Shown here: positions 30,412 to 40,214 of the stretch, in pieces | Numbering within the stretch: position 1 is the first letter of the stretch | Layout: each line of letters opens with the position of its first letter | Origin: Acetobacter lovaniensis | GTDB taxonomy: Bacteria; Pseudomonadota; Alphaproteobacteria; Acetobacterales; Acetobacteraceae | Direction of reading: 5' to 3' | Assembly: GCF_014207635.1 (NCBI RefSeq) | Contig: NZ_JACHIE010000009.1 | Location: 62,001 to 126,000 of the forward strand | DNA length: 64,000 nt | Made by a program: the position numbers and the translations under genes | Notes under the pieces: model-generated | Databases searched by the model: none | Seen by the model: the letters and a program-made list of their open reading frames with translations, nothing else | What the model was told of the DNA's origin: nothing

Positions 30412-32373
30412 ATGCAGAAAACAGACGCCACATCCCCTTCTTTACGTATGGATGGGGTATATGAACGCAGTATGATGCGTTACAGAAGTGATATTGACGG
30501 CCTGCGCGCGCTTGCAATTCTTCCTGTTATTTTCTTCCATTATGGACTTAAGCATCCCTTTAACGGCGGGTTTGCCGGGGTTGATGTTTTTTTTGTCATT
30601 TCCGGTTTTTTGATTACCCGGCACATCAACGATGCGGTGGAACAGGACCAGTTTGATATTCTTGATTTCTATAACCGTAGAATTCGCAGAATATTGCCTG
30701 CACTGTTTTCGGTTCTGGTGGTCTGCTTTGGTGTGTCCATACTCACGCAAACGCCACCGGAGGTTTATGATACAAGCCGTGGAATCCTGTGGTCCATACT
30801 CTTTGCATCGAACATTTTCTTCTATAGCCAGAGCAGTTATTTTGATTCCTCGTTGCAGGTTAACCCCCTTTTGCATACGTGGTCACTCTCTGTGGAGGAA
30901 CAGTTTTATATAGTTATCCCTTTTTTGATCTATTTTTCAAAAAAAGTTCTAAAAATACCTTTAAAATTCATAATTTTCTCTCTTCTTGCGTTAAGTTTTT
31001 CTGCCTGTTTGGTCGAGATTTTTCACGACAAGCCCGCAACATTCTACCTGCCGCAATACAGGGCGTGGGAGTTCCTGCTGGGGTCTGTTGTCATGCTTGC
31101 CACGCAGCCAGCCGTTCTGGCCAAAAGCCGGGTGACAAAGCCTGTGCTGGAAAGTTCTGCTGCTGTTGGCCTTGTTTTCATTCTGGCCAGTCTGTTCGCA
31201 CTTAACAACAAGTCGCTCTTTCCCGGACCGGGGGCTTTGGGGCCGTGTCTGGGGGCGGCTTTAGTCCTGTATTCTGGTAGCCAGCAGCGCACGGTTGTTG
31301 CCGCCGCCCTTTCCTACAGGCCATTGCGGTTTATTGGCCTTGTTTCCTACTCTTTATACCTGTGGCACTGGCCGATATGGGTCTTTTTTTCCATGTATGA
31401 CAGACCCGGTTTGTGGACAGTGCCGTTACTGCTGGGGGCTGCTTTTGGGGTCTCTGTTCTGTCATGGCGGTTTATTGAGCAGCCGTTCCGCACAAGGCCA
31501 TTCCGCTTATCCGCCAAAAGCACAATAGGTGCCATGGGGGGTGTTATGGTGTTCACGGTGCTCCTGGCTTTTGCAGGCAGCAGGCTGAATGCAACAGCAT
31601 GGCATTACAGCCCTGCTGAGCAGAAGGTCATGTCCTATATGGCATACAAGCCGACCACAATGCGGACTGGCACATGTTTTATTGACCGGAAGACCGAAGA
31701 TATTGAGGCATATAAGGCCGCGCATTGTCTGGATGTACAGGCCGGTCAGCCGAACTATCTGGTTCTGGGGGATAGCCACGCGGCAGACCGCTGGTACGGG
31801 TTGCAGCAGAGTTACCCCAACATCCACTTCCTGCAGGCAACAGCGCCAAGCTGTGAGCCTGTTCTGGGCGAAAATGGCGGCCAGTGTGGTGCGCTCCTGC
31901 ACTATATTTTTGAAGATTTTGTGCCATCGCATCATCTGGATGGCATTATTCTTTCAGCAAACTGGCTGGAGCAGGACTTTAACAACATTGTTAAAACTGC
32001 TCAGATGCTCAGGAATTATACAGACCGCGTTATTGTGCTTGGCCCAAGCCCGGAATACGACCAACTTCTGCCGTTGCTGCTTGTGCGGGCAATGGTAAAA
32101 AACAATATGGATCTGGTTTTCAACCACATTCTGCAGGACCGGAAAAAGCGGGACCAGATGCTTGCTGCCCGCCTGAAGGGAACAGGCATTGAATATGTAT
32201 CTGTTTACAACATTCTCTGCCCCGGCACTGTGTGCCTGACAACGGTCAGTGAGAACGTGCCGGTTTTATTCGACGCGGATCATTTTACAGCCGAAGGTTC
32301 GGTTTTTCTGGCTAAAAACATGCCGCTGTTTGGCCAGACGCACAGCAATGCTGGCGACGCTTTGCCGCATTAG
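30412..32373 (+). CDS. Membrane acyltransferase (OafA type) with C-terminal SGNH domain
   Basis: The 653-residue protein has an N-terminal acyltransferase-3 domain (about 20-360) with RSDIDGLRALAILPVIFFHY and the FGGVDVFFVISGF-like stretch GFAGVDVFFVISGFLITRHI, about ten membrane segments, and SLSVEEQFY. The C-terminal periplasmic part contains the SGNH motif YLVLGDSHAADRWYG (catalytic Ser) and ends near FDADHFTAEGSVFLA (Asp and His). This build O-acetylates extracellular polysaccharides, lipopolysaccharide or peptidoglycan. AAGGAGAGG is a strong ribosome binding site. The target is unknown. Confidence 0.9.
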   Translation: MQKTDATSPSLRMDGVYERSMMRYRSDIDGLRALAILPVIFFHYGLKHPFNGGFAGVDVFFVISGFLITRHINDAVEQDQFDILDFYNRRIRRILPALFSVLVVCFGVSILTQTPPEVYDTSRGILWSILFASNIFFYSQSSYFDSSLQVNPLLHTWSLSVEEQFYIVIPFLIYFSKKVLKIPLKFIIFSLLALSFSACLVEIFHDKPATFYLPQYRAWEFLLGSVVMLATQPAVLAKSRVTKPVLESSAAVGLVFILASLFALNNKSLFPGPGALGPCLGAALVLYSGSQQRTVVAAALSYRPLRFIGLVSYSLYLWHWPIWVFFSMYDRPGLWTVPLLLGAAFGVSVLSWRFIEQPFRTRPFRLSAKSTIGAMGGVMVFTVLLAFAGSRLNATAWHYSPAEQKVMSYMAYKPTTMRTGTCFIDRKTEDIEAYKAAHCLDVQAGQPNYLVLGDSHAADRWYGLQQSYPNIHFLQATAPSCEPVLGENGGQCGALLHYIFEDFVPSHHLDGIILSANWLEQDFNNIVKTAQMLRNYTDRVIVLGPSPEYDQLLPLLLVRAMVKNNMDLVFNHILQDRKKRDQMLAARLKGTGIEYVSVYNILCPGTVCLTTVSENVPVLFDADHFTAEGSVFLAKNMPLFGQTHSNAGDALPH

Positions 32374-32400
32374 GGTGTGTATGGGAGTTTTAAAAGGAAG

Positions 32401-32441
32401 TCAGGCGCTTGCGGGTTACAAAGTAAGCCACAAGCGCCTGA
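32401..32441 (-). terminator. Long hairpin, probable 3' end of the gap-pgk transcript
   Basis: TCAGGCGCTTG and CAAGCGCCTGA form a perfect 11-bp stem; inside it GGTTAC pairs with GTAAGCC with one bulge, extending the hairpin. On the minus strand it is followed by CTTCCTTTT, an imperfect T-run. Confidence 0.55.
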
Positions 32442-32478
32442 TATGGTCTTGGTATGACCTGCCCGCCTATGCCACCTG

Positions 32479-32537
32479 CGGGCCTTCCCTGCCGGGGCAG
32501 GGAAGCACCCTGCGGTTCCTGTCAGCAGGGTGGCCCG
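32479..32537. repeat. Nested inverted repeats able to form a three-way junction
   Basis: An outer stem CGGGCC/GGCCCG encloses two adjacent hairpins, TTCCCTGC/GCAGGGAA with a 4-base loop and CACCCTGC/GCAGGGTG with an 11-base loop (its last base is shared with the outer stem). It lies in the gap between convergent acyltransferase and pgk genes and could be part of the pgk 3' untranslated region. Confidence 0.45.
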
Positions 32538-32552
32538 GAGAGGAACTGGCAG

Positions 32553-32582
32553 ACCCTGCGTGTTAGATCGGCAGGGTTTTTT
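32553..32582 (+). terminator. Rho-independent terminator for the acyltransferase gene
   Basis: ACCCTGC pairs with GCAGGGT around an 11-base loop, followed by a T-run on the plus strand. It overlaps the last codons and stop of the convergent pgk gene. Confidence 0.7.
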
Positions 32583-33789
32583 CCAGCGTGGTGCTGATCG
32601 CGGTCAGGCCCGGCAGAATCTTGCCTTCAAGCCATTCCAGAAAAGCGCCACCAGCGGTCGAGACATAGGTCATGTCATGCAGCACACCCGCATGGCGCAG
32701 GGCGGATACGGTATCCCCCCCACCGGCAACGGTTTTCAGCTGGCCAGCCTTGGTCAGTCGGCCTGCTTCCTGCGCTACGGCGTTTGTGCCCTCATCAAAC
32801 GGAGGCAGTTCAAACACACCTAGCGGGCCGTTCCAGACCAGTGTTTTAAGCCCTGCGAGCTTGCTGTTGAGCAGCTTGACCGTTTCCGGCCCCACATCAA
32901 GCGCCATCCAGCCATCGGGAATGGCGTTGGATGGCACGGTGCTGGTGGGAGCGCCTGCCATGAAGTCTTCGGAGATGACCATGTCAACCGGCAGGATCAG
33001 GTCGCAGTTCTTGGCCTTGGCCTGCGCCATAATCAGGCGGGCCGTGTCCAGCATGTCCTCTTCCTTGAGCGATTTGCCAACGCTCAGGCCCTGAGCCGCC
33101 AGAAACGTGTTGGCCATGGCGCCGCCAATAGCCAGCATGTCCACCTTGTCCAGCAGGTTTTCGAGCAGCTGGAGCTTGGTGGAAATCTTGGCTCCCCCCA
33201 CAATGGCCCCTACGGGGCGTTCGGGGTTTTCCAGTGCTGCGTACAGGGCCTGCAGTTCCGCTTCCATCAGTCGGCCACCAAAGGATGGCAGATGGGTGGC
33301 AACCCCTGCCGTGGAGGCATGGGCGCGGTGTGCGGCGGAGAACGCATCGTTCACATACACATCGCCCAGATTGGCGAGTGCTGCGGAAAGTTCCGCGTCA
33401 TTACGTTCTTCACCGGGCTGGAAGCGGGTGTTTTCCAGCAGCAGAACGTCCCCGTCATTCATGGCGCGGGTTGCGGCTTCTGTTTCAGGCCCAATGCAGT
33501 CATGGGCAAAACTGACCGGGCGGCCCAGTGCGGTGGCCAGCGCCGTGGCAATGGGTTTGAGCGACATGGCGGGCACAACCTGGCCTTTGGGCCGGTCAAA
33601 ATGGCTGAGCAGAATAACCCGTCCGCCTTTTTCCGCCAGTTCCCGAATGGTGGGAACAACCCGCTCAATGCGGGTCTGATCGGTAACCTGTCCGTCCTTC
33701 ATGGGGACGTTCAGATCCACGCGGAGCAGGATGCGCTTGCCCTTGGGGTCCAGCGTATCCAGTGTGGCAAAGGGGAGATTGGTAGCCAT
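32563..33789 (-). CDS. pgk: Phosphoglycerate kinase
   Basis: The 408-residue glycolytic enzyme interconverts 1,3-bisphosphoglycerate and 3-phosphoglycerate with ATP. Marks: [63 protein letters not shown] and the C-terminal [10 protein letters not shown]. The frame runs upstream into gap, but the ATG at 33789 overlaps the gap stop by one base (TGATG) and gives a normal N-terminus, so the two are translationally coupled. Confidence 0.96.
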
Positions 33790-34811
33790 CAGAGCGATCC
33801 AAACAGGGCTGCCGTATCGGACATACGGTTGGAGAAGCCCCACTCGTTGTCATACCAGGAGCACACGCGCACCAGCTTGCCGCCATCGACCAGAGCGGTC
33901 TGCGTGGCATCAAAGGTGGAGGAGGCAATGGCGTGGTTGAAGTCGGAGCTGACCAGCGGGGCTTCGTTATAGGCCAGTGCGTTCTTCATTTTACCGGAGT
34001 CCACAACAGCCTTGATGGCGTTGTTGACCTCTTCCACGCTGCCGGGAGCCTTTTTGGGCACGAAGTCGAGCGAGACAACAGAGACATTGGCCGTAGGCAC
34101 ACGGATGGCCGTGCCATCGAGCTTGCCCTTGAGCTGCGGCAGAACCAGACCCACGGCGCGGGCTGCCCCCGTGGAGGTGGGGATCATGTTCATGCCTGCG
34201 GCACGGGCGCGGCGCAGGTCACTGTGCAGCGTGTCCACCGTGCGCTGGTCGCCGGTGTAGGAGTGGATGGTCACCATGTAGCCGCGTTCGATGCCAAAGG
34301 CGTCTTCCATCACCTTGGCAATGGGGGCCAGGCAGTTGGTGGTGCACGAGGCATTGGAGATGACGGTCATATCCGATGTCAGCACATCTTCATTCACGCC
34401 GAAGACGATGGTTGCATCCACATCCGTTGCCGGGGCGGAGACAATAACCTTGCGTGCGCCAGCAGCCAGCAGCAGGCCTGCTTTTTCCTTGGTGGTGAAC
34501 AGCCCGGTACATTCCATGGCCACGTCCACACCTGCAAACGGCACCTTGGAGGGGTCACGCTCGGCGGAAACGGTAATCGGGTCCCATGTGCGGCCATTGG
34601 CGGAAATGACCAGCTTGCCGTTTTCCACCCGAACGTCCGCAGGCAGGCGGCCGTGCACGCTGTCATAGCTCAGGAGGTGGGCGTTATCTTCCACGCTGCC
34701 CAGATCGTTAATGGCTACGGGCACGACGTCGGTGCGTCCGCTTTCAATAATGCCGCGCAGCACAAGGCGACCGATACGACCAAAGCCATTGATGGCGATT
34801 TTGACTGCCAT
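33789..34811 (-). CDS. gap: Glyceraldehyde-3-phosphate dehydrogenase, type I
   Basis: The 340-residue enzyme has the NAD motif [14 protein letters not shown], the catalytic [15 protein letters not shown] (Cys nucleophile), [20 protein letters not shown], and [12 protein letters not shown] at the C-terminus. It converts glyceraldehyde-3-phosphate to 1,3-bisphosphoglycerate for the downstream pgk. The cluster order is transketolase-like, gap, pgk; 20 bases separate it from the transketolase-like gene. Confidence 0.97.
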
Positions 34812-34831
34812 GGGATGTGTCTCCGTACTTT

Positions 34832-36784
34832 TTATGATCTTGTTATCGTTAGTGACATGTCCAGGGTTTCCAGCCGGGACGGGGGTGGGGCGGTAGGGGA
34901 CGAGTCCTTTTGCGCTCCAGATGCAAGAAAACGCGCAAGCACTTTCTCGCAGATCGCTCCAGCTGTAATGCCAAAGCGTTCATACACCGCGTTGGCAGGG
35001 GCGGATACGCCAAAATCATCCATGCCAACGAAAATTCCATCTGCGCCCAGCCAGCGTTCCCAGCCAAAGCTGCTTGCGGCTTCTATTCCCACGCGCAAAC
35101 CCTCCTGCCCCAGCACGGCCGTGCGGTAGGCGGCTGGCTGCTGTGCAAAAACCTCCCAGCAGGGGATGGAAACAACAGCCACGTTCAGCCCCCGCTCGGC
35201 CAGATGCTGCCCTGCCTGCGTGGCAATGGCAACCTCGGGGCCCGATGCCATGAGTGTGACGTCCCGCTCCCCCGCACCACAGCTTATAAGGTAGCCGCCA
35301 TGGGAGGGGCCGCCATAATGCCCGGCCCGCCGACCCGCGTGTGCCGGTGGGGGGTGCGGGCACAGGATCAGCAGGGCCGGGCCCTGCGGCCAGTTCAGGG
35401 CGGCCTGCCAGCAGGCAAAGGTTTCCTCCGCGCAGGCGGGGCGGAAAACGGCCAGATGCGGCATGGCGCGCAGGCTGGCCAGCTGTTCCACAGGTTGCCA
35501 GCCGCCGCCGTTATCGCTCAGGGCCAGCCCGTCATCGGTCAGCAGGTAAAGCACCTTGCTGCGCATGAGGGCCGTCATGCGCAAGGCCGAGCGCATGCGG
35601 TCGATGGTCATCATCCCGGCTATGCCGCAGGGCAGAATACCCCCGTGGCGGGCCATGCCGTTGAGCATACCCGCCATGCCATGTTCCTGTATGCCGCAAG
35701 GCTGCGCGGTATTGCTGAAGGGAATGGGCAGGTTGGCGCGGCGCGAGCTTCTGGTGCTCGACGTCGCGGCCAGAATGGCCACATCCTGCCGCAGCATCGC
35801 CAGTGCGCGCAGCCCGGCAAAAGCCGCCTGCTGGGAGGAACTGTCTGGGGCTTCACGCAGGGTCTGCCGCCAGAGCCGCCCCCAGTCTTCGCGCATGGTC
35901 TGACGGGCCTTGCCGGACTGGTCACGCTCAAAATCCGCGCGGGCGCGGTGCTGGGCCAGCCTGCGCAGCCAGGAGCGGCGGATGGAGCCGCCACGCCGGG
36001 CGGTGGGGCTCCATGGGCCGGTCAGTTCCTCCTCTGCGGGCAGGTCGGGCAGGGTGGGGCAGCATTCGGGCATGCAGGCGACAAGGGTGGGTTTTCTGGC
36101 CCGCAGCGTGGCCTGAAGTGCCGCCATAATGCCGCCAAGGTCATGGGCGCGCACTTTGCGCACACTCCACCCCGATGCCCCGAAGCGGGCCAGTGAGTCC
36201 GAAAAGTCAGCCGGGTCGGTCAGGGGGGAAGGGCAGACAAGTACAGCCATCCGGTTCAGGCCAAAGCGGCTGGCCAGTTGCGCGGCTTCCAGCGCGACAC
36301 CTGTAACCAGATCACTGTCGCGCGCCAGTACCCATGTGCGGTGGTTTACCAGGGAGCGGCCATAACGTTTGGCCAGATGTTGTTCGGCCAGAGCCATGCC
36401 TGCCGCCGCGGCCATGCCCTGTCCTGCCGGGCCTGTGGCAATTTCCACGGCCGGGTGCTGGCCGTATTCCAGCGTTGTACCCATCTCCTGCGCGCCGGAG
36501 CCTGTCAGGCGCAGCATGGCAGCCAGCAGGGGCAGCATGGCCGAAGAAGGCACCACGCATCGGTCCCTGTCGGGCCATGTGGGCATTGAGGGGTCAAAAC
36601 GGAGGATGCGGCACCACAGCGCTGTTATGGGCAGACACATGGTCTGGAGTTCGGTCCGGGTATCTTCTTCCGTGCTGGTGGCGGCCAGAAGGGCGCGGGC
36701 TGCCTTGTCCATGCGCAGCACAAGGGCGTCCTGCGTGTGGGAGGCGTGCGAGGCGGTGTGGTTTGTGGAAGATGTGCCGACCAT
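34832..36784 (-). CDS. Degenerate transketolase homologue (probable pseudoenzyme)
   Basis: The 650-residue open frame aligns along its length with transketolase ([25 protein letters not shown] at 117-134, CGIQEHGM at 363-370, [11 protein letters not shown] near 430, [12 protein letters not shown]), so the fold is kept. However, compared with E. coli TktA from memory, most active-site residues are gone: the SGHPG His region is DTRTE; SNGHGS is PSSAM; the TPP/Mg GDG-N pair reads RDS (155-157) and CPSP; the Asp and His of the GEDGPTHQ segment read Asn and Trp (SDNGGGWQ); the phosphate-binding Arg in LSRQ is lost. The TPP-activating Glu367 and one His (GQHP) remain. The frame is intact, arguing for function without catalysis. 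Start ATG 36784 chosen over an upstream GTG. First gene before gap-pgk. Confidence 0.85.
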
Positions 36785-37040
36785 CAGCCCTGTGTTCTGC
36801 CCAAGGGAGTGCAGTGCAAGAAGTGCTCCGTGCAACCAGCCCGGTGCTGCTGGGCAGTTAACCAGAGAGCAAATGGTATCTGCAAGAGGCAGTTTCGGGG
36901 CCGAACAGGTGTTTTTGCAGCCGGGTTACAGGCGTAAGGGCTTGCGCCGGGCGCGTGGGAGCGCGAAAGAAGAGGCGGATACCTTGCAAAATATGTGCGT
37001 CTGGCGCGCTACCTTGTTTCAAGTGGAGAGTGGTCCGGTC

Positions 37041-37517
37041 ATGCTGTCTGTTTTTCATGCCGCAAAAGGGGGGCGCGCTGTTGGGGCGGCGCTCTCGGTC
37101 TGCCTGCTGGCGGGCATGGTCGGGTGCAAGCCGCTGGACCAGAGAACGTTTGACCCTTCCGCCAGTGTTGAGCCCAAACCGTATATTCCCCCTCCCCCTC
37201 CCGGTCCTCCACCCGTGCCGCCCCTGATCGAACTGGTGGCAGGCACGCCACAGGTGGAATGGAAGGCTCCGGTGGACCAGATTGCGCACAGGGCACTTGC
37301 GCGTAAAAAGGAAGTGCTCTTTGTTGTAAGCTGTCTGGTGCCACCACAGGCAGGGCAGGAGGCGGAGCAGACTGCCCTGCAGAACCTCGTCCAGCATGAT
37401 GGACATGCCATTATGCAGGAACTGGTTGACGCAGGCGTGCCCGAAGCACAGGTGGAAATGTCCGCTATGCCGGATTCGTCGGTGACGAAGCCCACCATAC
37501 GGGTGTATGTGCGATAG
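37041..37517 (+). CDS. Lipoprotein of unknown function with proline-rich linker
   Basis: The 158-residue product has a signal sequence ending in a lipobox-like GMVGC (Cys near 29), a proline-rich linker (PYIPPPPPGPPPVPPL), then a compact alpha/beta segment ending TKPTIRVYVR. The C-terminal part (LVDAGVPEAQVEMSAMPD) resembles domains that build up a periplasmic repeat or OmpA-like fold, but no family is recognised. The frame is open far upstream, overlapping the transketolase-like gene; the ATG at 37041 fits the signal peptide. It is followed by hemA after about 100 bases. Confidence 0.65.
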   Translation: MLSVFHAAKGGRAVGAALSVCLLAGMVGCKPLDQRTFDPSASVEPKPYIPPPPPGPPPVPPLIELVAGTPQVEWKAPVDQIAHRALARKKEVLFVVSCLVPPQAGQEAEQTALQNLVQHDGHAIMQELVDAGVPEAQVEMSAMPDSSVTKPTIRVYVR

Positions 37518-37620
37518 ACGACCGTGCCGAAACATAACAGTATGAAGACACAAGGCCAGACGGCCGATGGGTAAGCCCATGCCCCGACCGTTTCTGACGA
37601 GAAGCGAGGAGAAAGCAAGC

Positions 37621-38892
37621 GTGGGAGCGATCAAGAACGCCCGGCATCCATTTTACGAACACTGTGAGGAAGCGCTGGGGCGGATCAAGCAGCAGGGGCG
37701 TTACCGAACCTTTACGCCACTGGCGCGTCAGGCAGAACGCTTTCCCCTGTATGAGGAATACGTGGCCAACATGCCCGAAGGGCGTGAGGTTATCGTCTGG
37801 TCCACAAACGACTATCTGGGCATGGGCGTTGTGCCAGAAGTGCAGGATGCCGCCATTGCCGCCATCCGCGAGCATGGCGCAGGAGCGGGGGGCACGCGTA
37901 ACATTGCAGGCACCAGCCCGCTGCATAACCAGCTGGAAGCCGAACTGGCCGCCCTGCATGGTAAGGAAGCCGGGCTGCTCTTTATTTCGGGCTATGTGTC
38001 CAATCAGGCCAGCCTTCAGACAATCCTGACATCGATGCCCGGCTGGATCTGTTTTTCCGACCGGCTGAACCATGCCTCCATGATTGCGGGCATCAAGGGT
38101 GCGCGCGGCTCCCAGACCGTTATTTTTGAACATAACGACCTGCAGGACCTCGAAGCCAAGCTGGCTGCGGCCCCGGCCGACGCCCCCAAGCTGATTGCGT
38201 TTGAGAGCGTGTACTCCATGGATGGAGACATGTCCGACATTGGCGCGATCTGTGCTCTGGCCAGAAAATACAATGCCCTGACCTATCTGGACGAAGTGCA
38301 TGCCGTAGGGCTGTACGGGCAGGAAGGGGGCGGCGTCTCACAGCGTGATGGTGTGGCCGATCAGGTGGACATTATTGAGGGCACGCTGGCCAAGGGCTTT
38401 GGCGTGCATGGAGGGTACATTACCGCTTCGGCCGGGATTGTGGATTTTCTGCGCTCAACGGCATCGGGGTTTATTTTCACCACATCCCTGCCACCCTCCG
38501 TGGTGGGGGCAGCGCTGACCAGCGTGCGCAAGGTGCGGGCGGAAAACTGGCGGCGTGAAGCCCTGTTCGAGCGTGTGCACACCATGCGCCAGCGCCTGCG
38601 GGCTGCCGGTGTGCCCTTTACCATGACTCCAAGCCATATTGTGCCCATTCCCATTGGGGATGCCGAGCGCTGCAAGCGGATATGCCGCCGCCTTCTGGTG
38701 GAGTTTGGCCATTATGCAACGCCGATCAACTACCCGACCGTGCCCGAAGGTACCGAGCGCCTGCGCCTGACGCCCGGACCATTCCATACGGATGAGATGA
38801 TGGACGATATGGTGCGCGCCCTTGCGCATCTTTTGCGCGAGGAAGGTATTATTCCCCAGCCCGTTGCGCAAAAAATCGAGAACGTGGCCTGA
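37621..38892 (+). CDS. hemA: 5-aminolevulinate synthase
   Basis: The PLP enzyme (423 residues from this start) condenses glycine and succinyl-CoA, the first step of haem synthesis by the alphaproteobacterial C4 route. Marks: [54 protein letters not shown] and the PLP lysine in [14 protein letters not shown], plus [20 protein letters not shown] favour the GTG at 37621 because AGGAG lies 9 bases upstream and the length then fits the family; an ATG at 37567 would add 18 residues. Confidence 0.95.
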
Positions 38893-38931
38893 TACGGAAC
38901 CAGCCTGTTTCTGGTCTGGTATAGGCTGTTT

Positions 38932-38962
38932 AAAAACCCTCCATGGCAATGGAGGGTTTTTT
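38932..38962. terminator. Rho-independent terminator, hemA and the convergent CBS-MCP gene
   Basis: AAAAACCCTCCAT pairs with ATGGAGGGTTTTT around a 4-base loop, with a T-run on each strand, so it can serve both convergent genes. Its right end touches the stop codon of the minus-strand gene. Confidence 0.88.
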
Positions 38963-40214
38963 ATTGCAGGCTATAATGTGTTGGCAGGCTGTGCATGTTG
39001 TTTGTTATTTGCGCCAGTTCTGAAACATTGAAGAACAGATTGTCGCAGATTGCATTGGTATTATGGACGGTTTCGTTATTCTGGGCGGTGGAAACATTGA
39101 GCTCCTGCATGATCTGATGCAGTTGGAGAATCTCTTCTTTCTGCGCTAATGCGGTTTCTTCAAACTCCTGAAAAGAGCACTTTATTTTATCAACATGGTG
39201 AATAATTCCCGATAATGTCTGGGAGTTATCGCGCATGGAGTCCGAGCAGGTGTTTATGGCATCCTGCAAATAGGAGATCAGCGTTTTTGTGCGGAGCAGG
39301 GATTCCGAAGTCATGCGTGAAAGATTCCGTATTTCCTGTGCAACGACAGCAAACCCGGTACCGGAGCTGCCTACCTTGGAGGCTTCTATGGTTGCGTTAA
39401 TCCCCAGAATATTGATCTGGGACGAAATATTTTTCATGATATTGAGAATTTTCCCAATATCTTCTGACGCTTCCGATATTTTTTCGAATTTTTCTATGGT
39501 GTCGTTAATTTTTACACAGGATTCCCGTATGTTTGTAGACGCATGCTGAATATAATTTCTGGATTCTTCCATTTTTATATTCTGACTTTTGGTTTTTTCC
39601 ATAGTCGATTTTATGCGTTTGTCAGATTCCCGCAAATGCCGGTTTTGCGTTCTGTTGCGCTCCGAAAGGTTTTCGGACTCATCCCTCAGGCTGCGGGATT
39701 CCGCACTGATCGAATGGGTTGCTGTCTGGATTTTAAGCAGTGTTTCATGCAGCGTTACGGTTCTGGTCTGGAGCGTATCTGAAATGCGGTTGCTGTGGAG
39801 GTAGGACACCCGCATAAGATCAAACGGAGTGGCCGTGCCAACATAGCACTGGTTATGTGTGATTATAAAAGACTTGTTAATATCAGATATTTTGTTGTTC
39901 AGAATCTTTTTTGTAAAATCCAGAATAGGTGTTCTGGCCTCCACCATGAGCGGACGATCGTCCATGAGCAGTGTAACCGGGCGTTTATGGTACAGGGCAT
40001 ATGAAAACGGGCTGGACATGAGGGAAAGGAATCTTTGCCTTTCCACAACGCCAACGGGAATATTTCTGGCGTTGATAATGCAAATATGGTGGGTGTCAGG
40101 ATAGTTTCTGAAAATATCCATGACGGCACTTCCAGATTCAGTCGGACAGAGTCTGAACCCGTCTTGCGCGAGGGAACCCATGCTGTGCTGGTCGAATGTT
40201 TGCTGCAGGGTCAT
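38961..40214 (-). CDS. Soluble MCP-like signalling protein with N-terminal CBS-pair domain
   Basis: About 417 residues with no signal peptide or membrane segment. The N-terminal third (about 25-150) resembles a CBS pair (HICIINARNIPVGVVERQRF; SFIITHNQCYVGTATPFDLM). A long coiled coil follows, then a methyl-accepting signalling hairpin with INILGINATIEASKVGSSG and GFAVVAQEIRNLSRMT, which normally docks CheA/CheW. No receptor transmembrane part exists, so it probably senses a cytoplasmic nucleotide or metabolite. Ser/Asn-rich and more AT-rich than its neighbours. The start is uncertain because upstream in-frame ATGs lack good ribosome binding sites. No che genes are nearby. Confidence 0.75.
   Translation of the reverse strand: MTLQQTFDQHSMGSLAQDGFRLCPTESGSAVMDIFRNYPDTHHICIINARNIPVGVVERQRFLSLMSSPFSYALYHKRPVTLLMDDRPLMVEARTPILDFTKKILNNKISDINKSFIITHNQCYVGTATPFDLMRVSYLHSNRISDTLQTRTVTLHETLLKIQTATHSISAESRSLRDESENLSERNRTQNRHLRESDKRIKSTMEKTKSQNIKMEESRNYIQHASTNIRESCVKINDTIEKFEKISEASEDIGKILNIMKNISSQINILGINATIEASKVGSSGTGFAVVAQEIRNLSRMTSESLLRTKTLISYLQDAINTCSDSMRDNSQTLSGIIHHVDKIKCSFQEFEETALAQKEEILQLHQIMQELNVSTAQNNETVHNTNAICDNLFFNVSELAQITNNMHSLPTHYSLQ

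Follow-up and report, generated by a model that had tools for sequence, protein, structure and literature searches.

The protein described here shares its fold, domain order, descent and position in a tkt-gap-pgk cluster with the transketolases (TK) of the E. coli TktA type (Pfam PF00456/PF02779/PF22613/PF02780). Two less regular systems offer themselves for comparison: human TKTL1, which according to the accessible parts of PMC12525540 is likewise a TK paralogue without TPP-binding residues beside an active TK, and the split-gene TK of Carboxydothermus, which in the available extract of PMC7661550 likewise has a non-standard TK architecture. For acetic acid bacteria, the accessible text of the genome paper on A. 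pasteurianus 386B (2013, PMC3751514) gives APA386B_1521 as one of two transketolases and numbers it beside the genes for GAPDH (_1520) and PGK (_1519). Database entries for proteins of this kind bear the name transketolase or domain-only names. In a literature search covering titles, the beginnings of abstracts and few subscription papers, none called the protein inactive or a pseudoenzyme. The sequences are already public as transketolases; what appears to be new is their reading as a bacterial, cluster-encoded pseudo-transketolase (pseudo-TK; gene, pseudo-tkt).

The gene lies in a stretch of 64,000 nucleotides from Acetobacter lovaniensis (the window; assembly GCF_014207635.1, contig NZ_JACHIE010000009.1, positions 62,001 to 126,000). 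A check of the open reading frames in the window confirmed the uninterrupted frame reported in the first-pass annotation, 650 codons plus stop on the minus strand (34832..36784, (-)), as the first gene ahead of gap-pgk. Both neighbors were also found where they had been placed: gap, encoding glyceraldehyde-3-phosphate dehydrogenase (33789..34811, (-)), follows 20 bp downstream with a GGAG preceding its ATG, and next comes pgk, encoding phosphoglycerate kinase (32563..33789, (-)), whose start would be at MATNLPF, abutting the gap stop. On the other side are a divergent small lipoprotein-like ORF (37041..37517, (+)), named by look only and conserved between hemA and pseudo-tkt, and an ORF at 37567..38892 (+), a flanking gene in acetic acid bacteria which we take to encode a hemA-type 5-aminolevulinate synthase. 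An Rfam scan of window positions 32000-39500 yielded nothing at the gathering score, and a promoter scan yielded consensus-level matches only. A weak sigma-70-like match is situated at 34863-34834, within the last pseudo-tkt codons.

That the transketolase fold is recognizable from end to end was borne out by profile search and structure prediction. The Pfam models Transketolase_N and Transket_pyr and both C-terminal models match the protein, and the AlphaFold2 model (pLDDT 85.6, pTM 0.87) has the complete TK fold, with PP, Pyr and C domains in the TK arrangement, which places the protein in the TK-fold superfamily. Its score against the transketolase equivalog TIGR00232 is 313.8 bits, compared with a curated cut-off of 682.25. 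The protein divides into an N-terminal and former TPP-diphosphate (PP) domain (residues 1-250; 36035..36784, (-); approximate boundaries, by alignment to TktA), an arginine-rich linker helix (residues 258-287; 35924..36013, (-)) that the model predicts as a helix at residues 260-278, a former pyrimidine-binding (Pyr) domain (residues 316-490; 35315..35839, (-)) and a C-terminal TK domain (residues 491-620; 34925..35314, (-); approximate boundaries).

For the assessment of the active site, 19 TPP, Mg and substrate residues were scored with E. coli TktA (locus L059) as reference and in TktA numbering. The residue roles in the accessible part of PMC3352088 agree with the 19 positions. The window protein keeps three of them, Gly114, Asp155 and Glu411, so few that the residue pattern of an active transketolase (EC 2.2.1.1) is absent. 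In the PP domain, His26>T, His66>A, His100>T, Gly156>S and Asn185>S coincide with deletion of the metal loop; His261 is deleted, Arg358 is changed to Q and Ser385 is replaced or deleted, and further substitutions are Phe434>G, Phe437>T, His461>D, Asp469>N, His473>W and Arg520>P. The Pyr domain thus carries Trp429 (protein numbering) in place of the canonical His473, and Arg396 in place of a canonical Tyr. The first-pass annotation had listed a series of active-site residues as replaced, including the GDG and Asn pair. This is right for most of them, the Gly and the Asn among them, but the metal Asp of GDG aligns with a retained Asp (in ARDSD). Retention of the TPP-activating Glu367 (TktA Glu411), also claimed there, is correct for the window protein and is no feature of the family: among 45 pseudo-tkt loci the position is occupied by Glu in 22, Asp in three, Val in 19 and Ala in one.

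These 45 loci belong to 79 named loci obtained from the best 80 of at least 557 relatives. Classified by best match, the 45 pseudo loci (L129 being cut by a contig end) keep 1-6 of the 19 residues and the 34 canonical loci keep 15-19; a single row may score about one higher or lower in another alignment (L070: 6 vs. 5). The best 120 database relatives comprise 94 proteins keeping 1-6, nine keeping 7-18 and 17 keeping all 19 residues. Thirteen congeners (L210-L222) retain 2-4, and three Lichenicoccus proteins (P0042, P0045, P0062) 3-4. Judged from these residues, the pseudo-TK is probably catalytically inactive.

The matches listed in a family search of 299 genomes, themselves a sample of a larger group, include weaker full-length ones from many other Acetobacteraceae. 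From the family and genus searches 30 chosen loci were scored, and so were 16 with wider flanks. All of these 16 further gap-linked loci (genus codes g7, g41, g48, g92, g11, g53, g86, g97, and g56) keep 0-6 of 19 residues and are followed by gap and pgk; L239 is a fragment, and its 0/19 stems partly from missing columns. Together with the core set, the dead gene is present in at least 14 genus codes, and the branch includes Acetobacter, Gluconacetobacter, Komagataeibacter, Novacetimonas and Lichenicoccus. Within the genus Acetobacter, 44 of 49 genomes, the window's own included, carry an intact frame. Two of the other five have no match of the pseudo type (G038, G039), one has the gene split over contigs (G027), and in G021 and G030 it is interrupted, where sequencing error is likely because the second TK of these two genomes also lies in broken pieces.

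The link to gap is not universal. Among 28 gap loci fetched from non-carriers and doubtful cases, 19 have no TK sequence in a flank of up to 1.5 kb (just 656 bp upstream for L207). One of the 19 belongs to Acetobacter sp. AN02 (L125; G041), in which pseudo-tkt stands at the hemA-lipoprotein site and gap-pgk is encoded on another contig, so that gap-pgk does not require the pseudo-tkt in cis. In AN02 the ORF now following pseudo-tkt is presumably aconitase-like, and the protein has the longest end branch of the quick tree (1.14).

Trees and gene order together show the pseudo-tkt to be the former normal tkt of the tkt-gap-pgk cluster. It has the position of the normal tkt in Acidocella, Acidiphilium, Rhodopila and other alphaproteobacteria, and in the three named genera the normal tkt of the cluster is still intact. 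The order pseudo-tkt, gap, pgk was found in 44 of the 45 named pseudo loci and 16 of the 16 further loci, and gap lies downstream in 31 of the 34 canonical-class loci within the fetched flank. In a careful tree of 39 rows, all 12 core pseudo-TKs form one clade (support 100/100) inside the gap-linked TKs, whose branch (100/99) is separate from the second TKs. A careful tree of 55 rows unites 22 dead rows in a single clade (99/96). Both place the pseudo-TK by common descent with the gap-linked TKs rather than with the second TK; the quick tree carries a long-branch warning, and the placement rests on the careful trees and the gene order. Just outside the dead clade are the partly stripped L055 and L057 (13/19) and L099 (15/19), all 25 rows grouping at 100/96, and the genomes of these three also have a complete second TK (L175, L172 and L170; 19/19). 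These intermediate rows hint at loss in steps; many small parallel losses in the big clade would be an alternative course that the tree allows. Altogether the 55-row tree requires two live-to-lost changes. Outside this clade, L058/L180 (G244) keeps 7/19 residues, groups with Rhodopila (100/99), is followed by gap and has lost its residues independently; a distantly related intact TK (L174, 19/19) is encoded elsewhere in the L058 genome.

The first-pass annotation had proposed a search for a second canonical tkt, and one was found in the window genome (L140/L001; G000:C5:52363-54642) with 19/19 residues. Its cluster consists of tkt, a 955-aa ORF and a third gene, which we take to be tal/pgi-like and 6-phosphogluconate-dehydrogenase-like (gnd-like), respectively. 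These names are consistent with GOX1703/1704 in the accessible part of PMC6191907. The complete set of 19 residues is present in 30 of 30 second-TK loci. Each of the 38 distinct carrier genomes that were searched has another intact TK, namely 23 genomes behind 25 carrier handles (two were reached twice) and 15 further carriers; the latter have at least one intact TK each, and 17 of their 17 TK loci keep 18-19 residues. The intact TKs of g53, g86 and g97 fall into clades other than the Acetobacter type, and G176 (g53) has both kinds. As the intact TKs of carriers thus form separate clades, the spare enzymes are of several origins and the dead gene of one. Nine intact TKs from genomes that have a dead gap-linked TK (L263-L271; G307, G277, G200, G292, G100, G133, G224, G261, and G054) are only 47-51% identical to the Acetobacter second-TK type and do not belong to it, so that TKs of more than one origin assumed catalysis. 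G352 and G353 (Komagataeibacter swingsii and K. rhaeticus) have three second-type TK matches each, two at 70% and one at 61% identity. A diverging TK paralogue outside the gap cluster, L177 (G363:C12), keeps 15/19 residues; its changes (Arg358>N, Ser385>P, Phe434>Y, Asp469>N) perhaps indicate an altered function.

Selection on the pseudo-tkt was estimated by pairwise YN00, a check that the first-pass annotation had called for. All 24 pairs from Acetobacter, Gluconacetobacter, Novacetimonas and Komagataeibacter, which are not independent of one another, gave a dN/dS of 0.026-0.129, compared with 0.040-0.061 for the active second TK in three pairs. Six more distant pairs from the wider clade, at high dS, gave 0.059-0.288; constraint is weakest in g97 (0.15-0.29), and selection is purifying in every pair. 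General frameshifting or relaxed selection in relatives was looked for and not seen; the dN/dS of the 24 pairs and the 44 of 49 intact genus frames argue against a decaying gene. The earlier claim that a dead protein is maintained beside gap-pgk thus holds well: a putatively inactive protein has lost its site clade-wide while frame and purifying selection were kept, the combination that defines a pseudoenzyme. Over 120 pairs from 16 genomes, divergence between genera is larger for the pseudo-tkt than for the active TK, by a factor of about 2.5 in PP and Pyr and 1.6 in the C domain. The last 30 codons (34835-34924, (-)) behave differently, with a dS of 0.04-0.15 in five pairs vs. at least 0.35 for residues 1-620, and dN at 0.5 dS or more; this looks like a DNA element for gap, though it amounts to a hint.

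The domains were retained to different degrees. With approximate domain bounds, the columns conserved in canonical gap-linked TKs that 34 pseudo sequences keep number 34 of 149 for PP and 28 of 92 for Pyr; the C domain, with 35 of 50, is the best-kept whole domain. Identity to the gap-linked canonical TKs is 0.60 in the linker core, 0.57 in C, 0.44 in PP and 0.40 in Pyr, and the 16 further loci give 0.60, 0.56, 0.52 and 0.43, respectively. When live TKs are compared with one another, this ranking is absent (linker core 0.74, C 0.71, PP 0.76, Pyr 0.79), and the linker core of the pseudo-TKs is only 0.23 identical to that of the second TK. We limit the conservation claim to the core helix, which has remained near the active ancestor across the dead clade, because for the whole linker (residues 258-310) the identity relative to the active paralogue is 0.62 vs. 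0.56 in one definition and 0.47 vs. 0.55 in another; g97 deviates from the linker-core motif. Residues 255-307 carry a mean net charge of +8.3 in the pseudo-TKs (48 rows), +4.6 in the canonical TKs (34) and -3.3 in the second TKs (23). By these comparisons, the pocket residues drift while the linker helix and the C domain remain near the active ancestor.

The pseudo-TK probably has a non-enzyme job. We give a little better than an even chance to its being a pseudoenzyme in which a binding function of the old TK, independent of catalysis, survives, as a scaffold or regulator at the junction of the pentose phosphate pathway and lower glycolysis. The gap-linked TK would already have carried such a role beside catalysis; in a large branch of the Acetobacteraceae the ancestral tkt of the tkt-gap-pgk cluster lost its catalytic site, coexisting with an intact tkt elsewhere in the genome, and the gene would have been retained for the other role. 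Linker helix and C domain would serve as the binding surface, and their conservation favors a binding role, even if it may instead reflect folding or packing needs after release of the active site. Candidate partners would be GapA and Pgk in the first place, because they share the cluster, and the active TK in the second. A role with GapA and Pgk only is weakened by AN02. It also counts against a binding role that several lineages are without the gene, that g97 deviates from the core motif and that the linker taken whole, at 0.47 in one definition, is conserved no better than the rest of the protein. A broader form of the proposal, that gap-linked Acetobacterales TKs always had a second, non-catalytic job residing in the arginine-rich linker helix and the C domain and exposed by loss at least twice, is more tentative, and we rate it somewhat short of even. 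If true, the losses would be the large dead clade and L058, the old gene would have persisted as a dead TK wherever another tkt assumed catalysis, in a natural separation of function, and the linker and C-terminal region of TK would turn out to have a hidden role.

Heterodimerization of the dead protein with the active TK, tuning its activity in the manner of a TKTL1-like regulator, we regard as unlikely. An intact partner would be available in each of the 38 carrier genomes, the model predicts that the overall TK fold is retained, and human TKTL-1, which lacks TPP-binding residues, is reported to heterodimerize with TKT in the accessible part of PMC12525540. Going by the available text of PMC3352088, however, TK dimer contacts lie mostly in PP and Pyr, which are the least-kept domains here. 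Moreover, the intact TKs of the carriers belong to several separate clades and offer no single constant partner, and the best local alignment of the window protein with its own second TK reaches just 36% over 251 residues.

To the same degree improbable is that the former cofactor pocket was rebuilt around Arg396 and Trp429 for catalysis on, or binding of, another metabolite without TPP. In the 34 pseudo-TKs the two residues have weighted frequencies of 1.00 and 0.86, as against Tyr and His473 in both canonical groups. In the wider dead clade they drift, with Arg396 in three and Trp429 in five of the 16 further loci, which lowers this reading; human TKT likewise has an Arg at the Arg396 position in the accessible part of PMC3352088, and the loop 420-429 is modeled with a pLDDT below 50.

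A cis role or mere inertia, with the frame kept for the correct placement or translation of gap-pgk, is a far more remote prospect. It would fit the 20-bp spacing to gap and the low dS of the last 30 codons, but amino acids are constrained across residues 1-620 (segment dN/dS 0.06-0.22 in five pairs), 19 of the 28 fetched gap loci have no TK match in the flank, and AN02 maintains the protein away from gap. A still-active transketolase with unusual residues, as the name given by databases and genome paper would have it, is hardly credible, given that little is left of the histidines, the Asn ligand, the aromatic pocket and the phosphate-binding Arg, that every dead-class locus scored has 0-6/19 and that the TPP-activating Glu is replaced in 23 of 45 named loci.

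Gene content was compared between carriers and non-carriers. In 43 hand-picked genomes, pyruvate phosphate dikinase (TIGR01828) is encoded in 20 of 22 carriers and six of 21 non-carriers (Fisher p 3.5e-5, a value that ignores kinship), which we treat as a lead only. The glyoxylate shunt (PF00463) was rejected as a retention correlate, as none of seven carriers of g60 and g73, presumably Komagataeibacter and Novacetimonas, had it and two of two non-carriers of g100 gave strong matches. The fructose-1,6-bisphosphatase family PF00316 was uninformative, with matches in none of the 43 Acetobacteraceae genomes, despite a fructose-1,6-bisphosphatase I given for A. pasteurianus 386B in the accessible text of its genome paper (PMC3751514).

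Purifying selection thus maintains, in much of the Acetobacteraceae, a core metabolic enzyme apparently stripped of its chemistry; the carriers include bacteria involved in vinegar, bacterial cellulose and cocoa fermentation. Since the dead gene is annotated as transketolase, models of metabolism may include a wrong isoenzyme. Intermediates that are only partly stripped would record the stepwise origin of a pseudoenzyme, and a function of TK besides catalysis becomes a testable question, open to study in laboratory strains that are not pathogens.

Compared with the TktA-type transketolases, the window protein differs in its 3/19 residues (0-6 in the clade) and in its score below the TIGR00232 cut-off. 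The second TK of the same genome belongs to the same superfamily but has 19/19 residues, another clade and an acidic linker, as opposed to the basic one of the pseudo-TK. Human TKTL1 is characterized by a 38-residue deletion, whereas the pseudo-TK has losses across cofactor and substrate sites plus a loop deletion and is encoded in a bacterial cluster; no special kinship between the two is claimed. The Carboxydothermus TK, finally, is active as a reconstituted tetramer according to the available extract of PMC7661550, while the present gene forms a single full-length frame and lacks the site.
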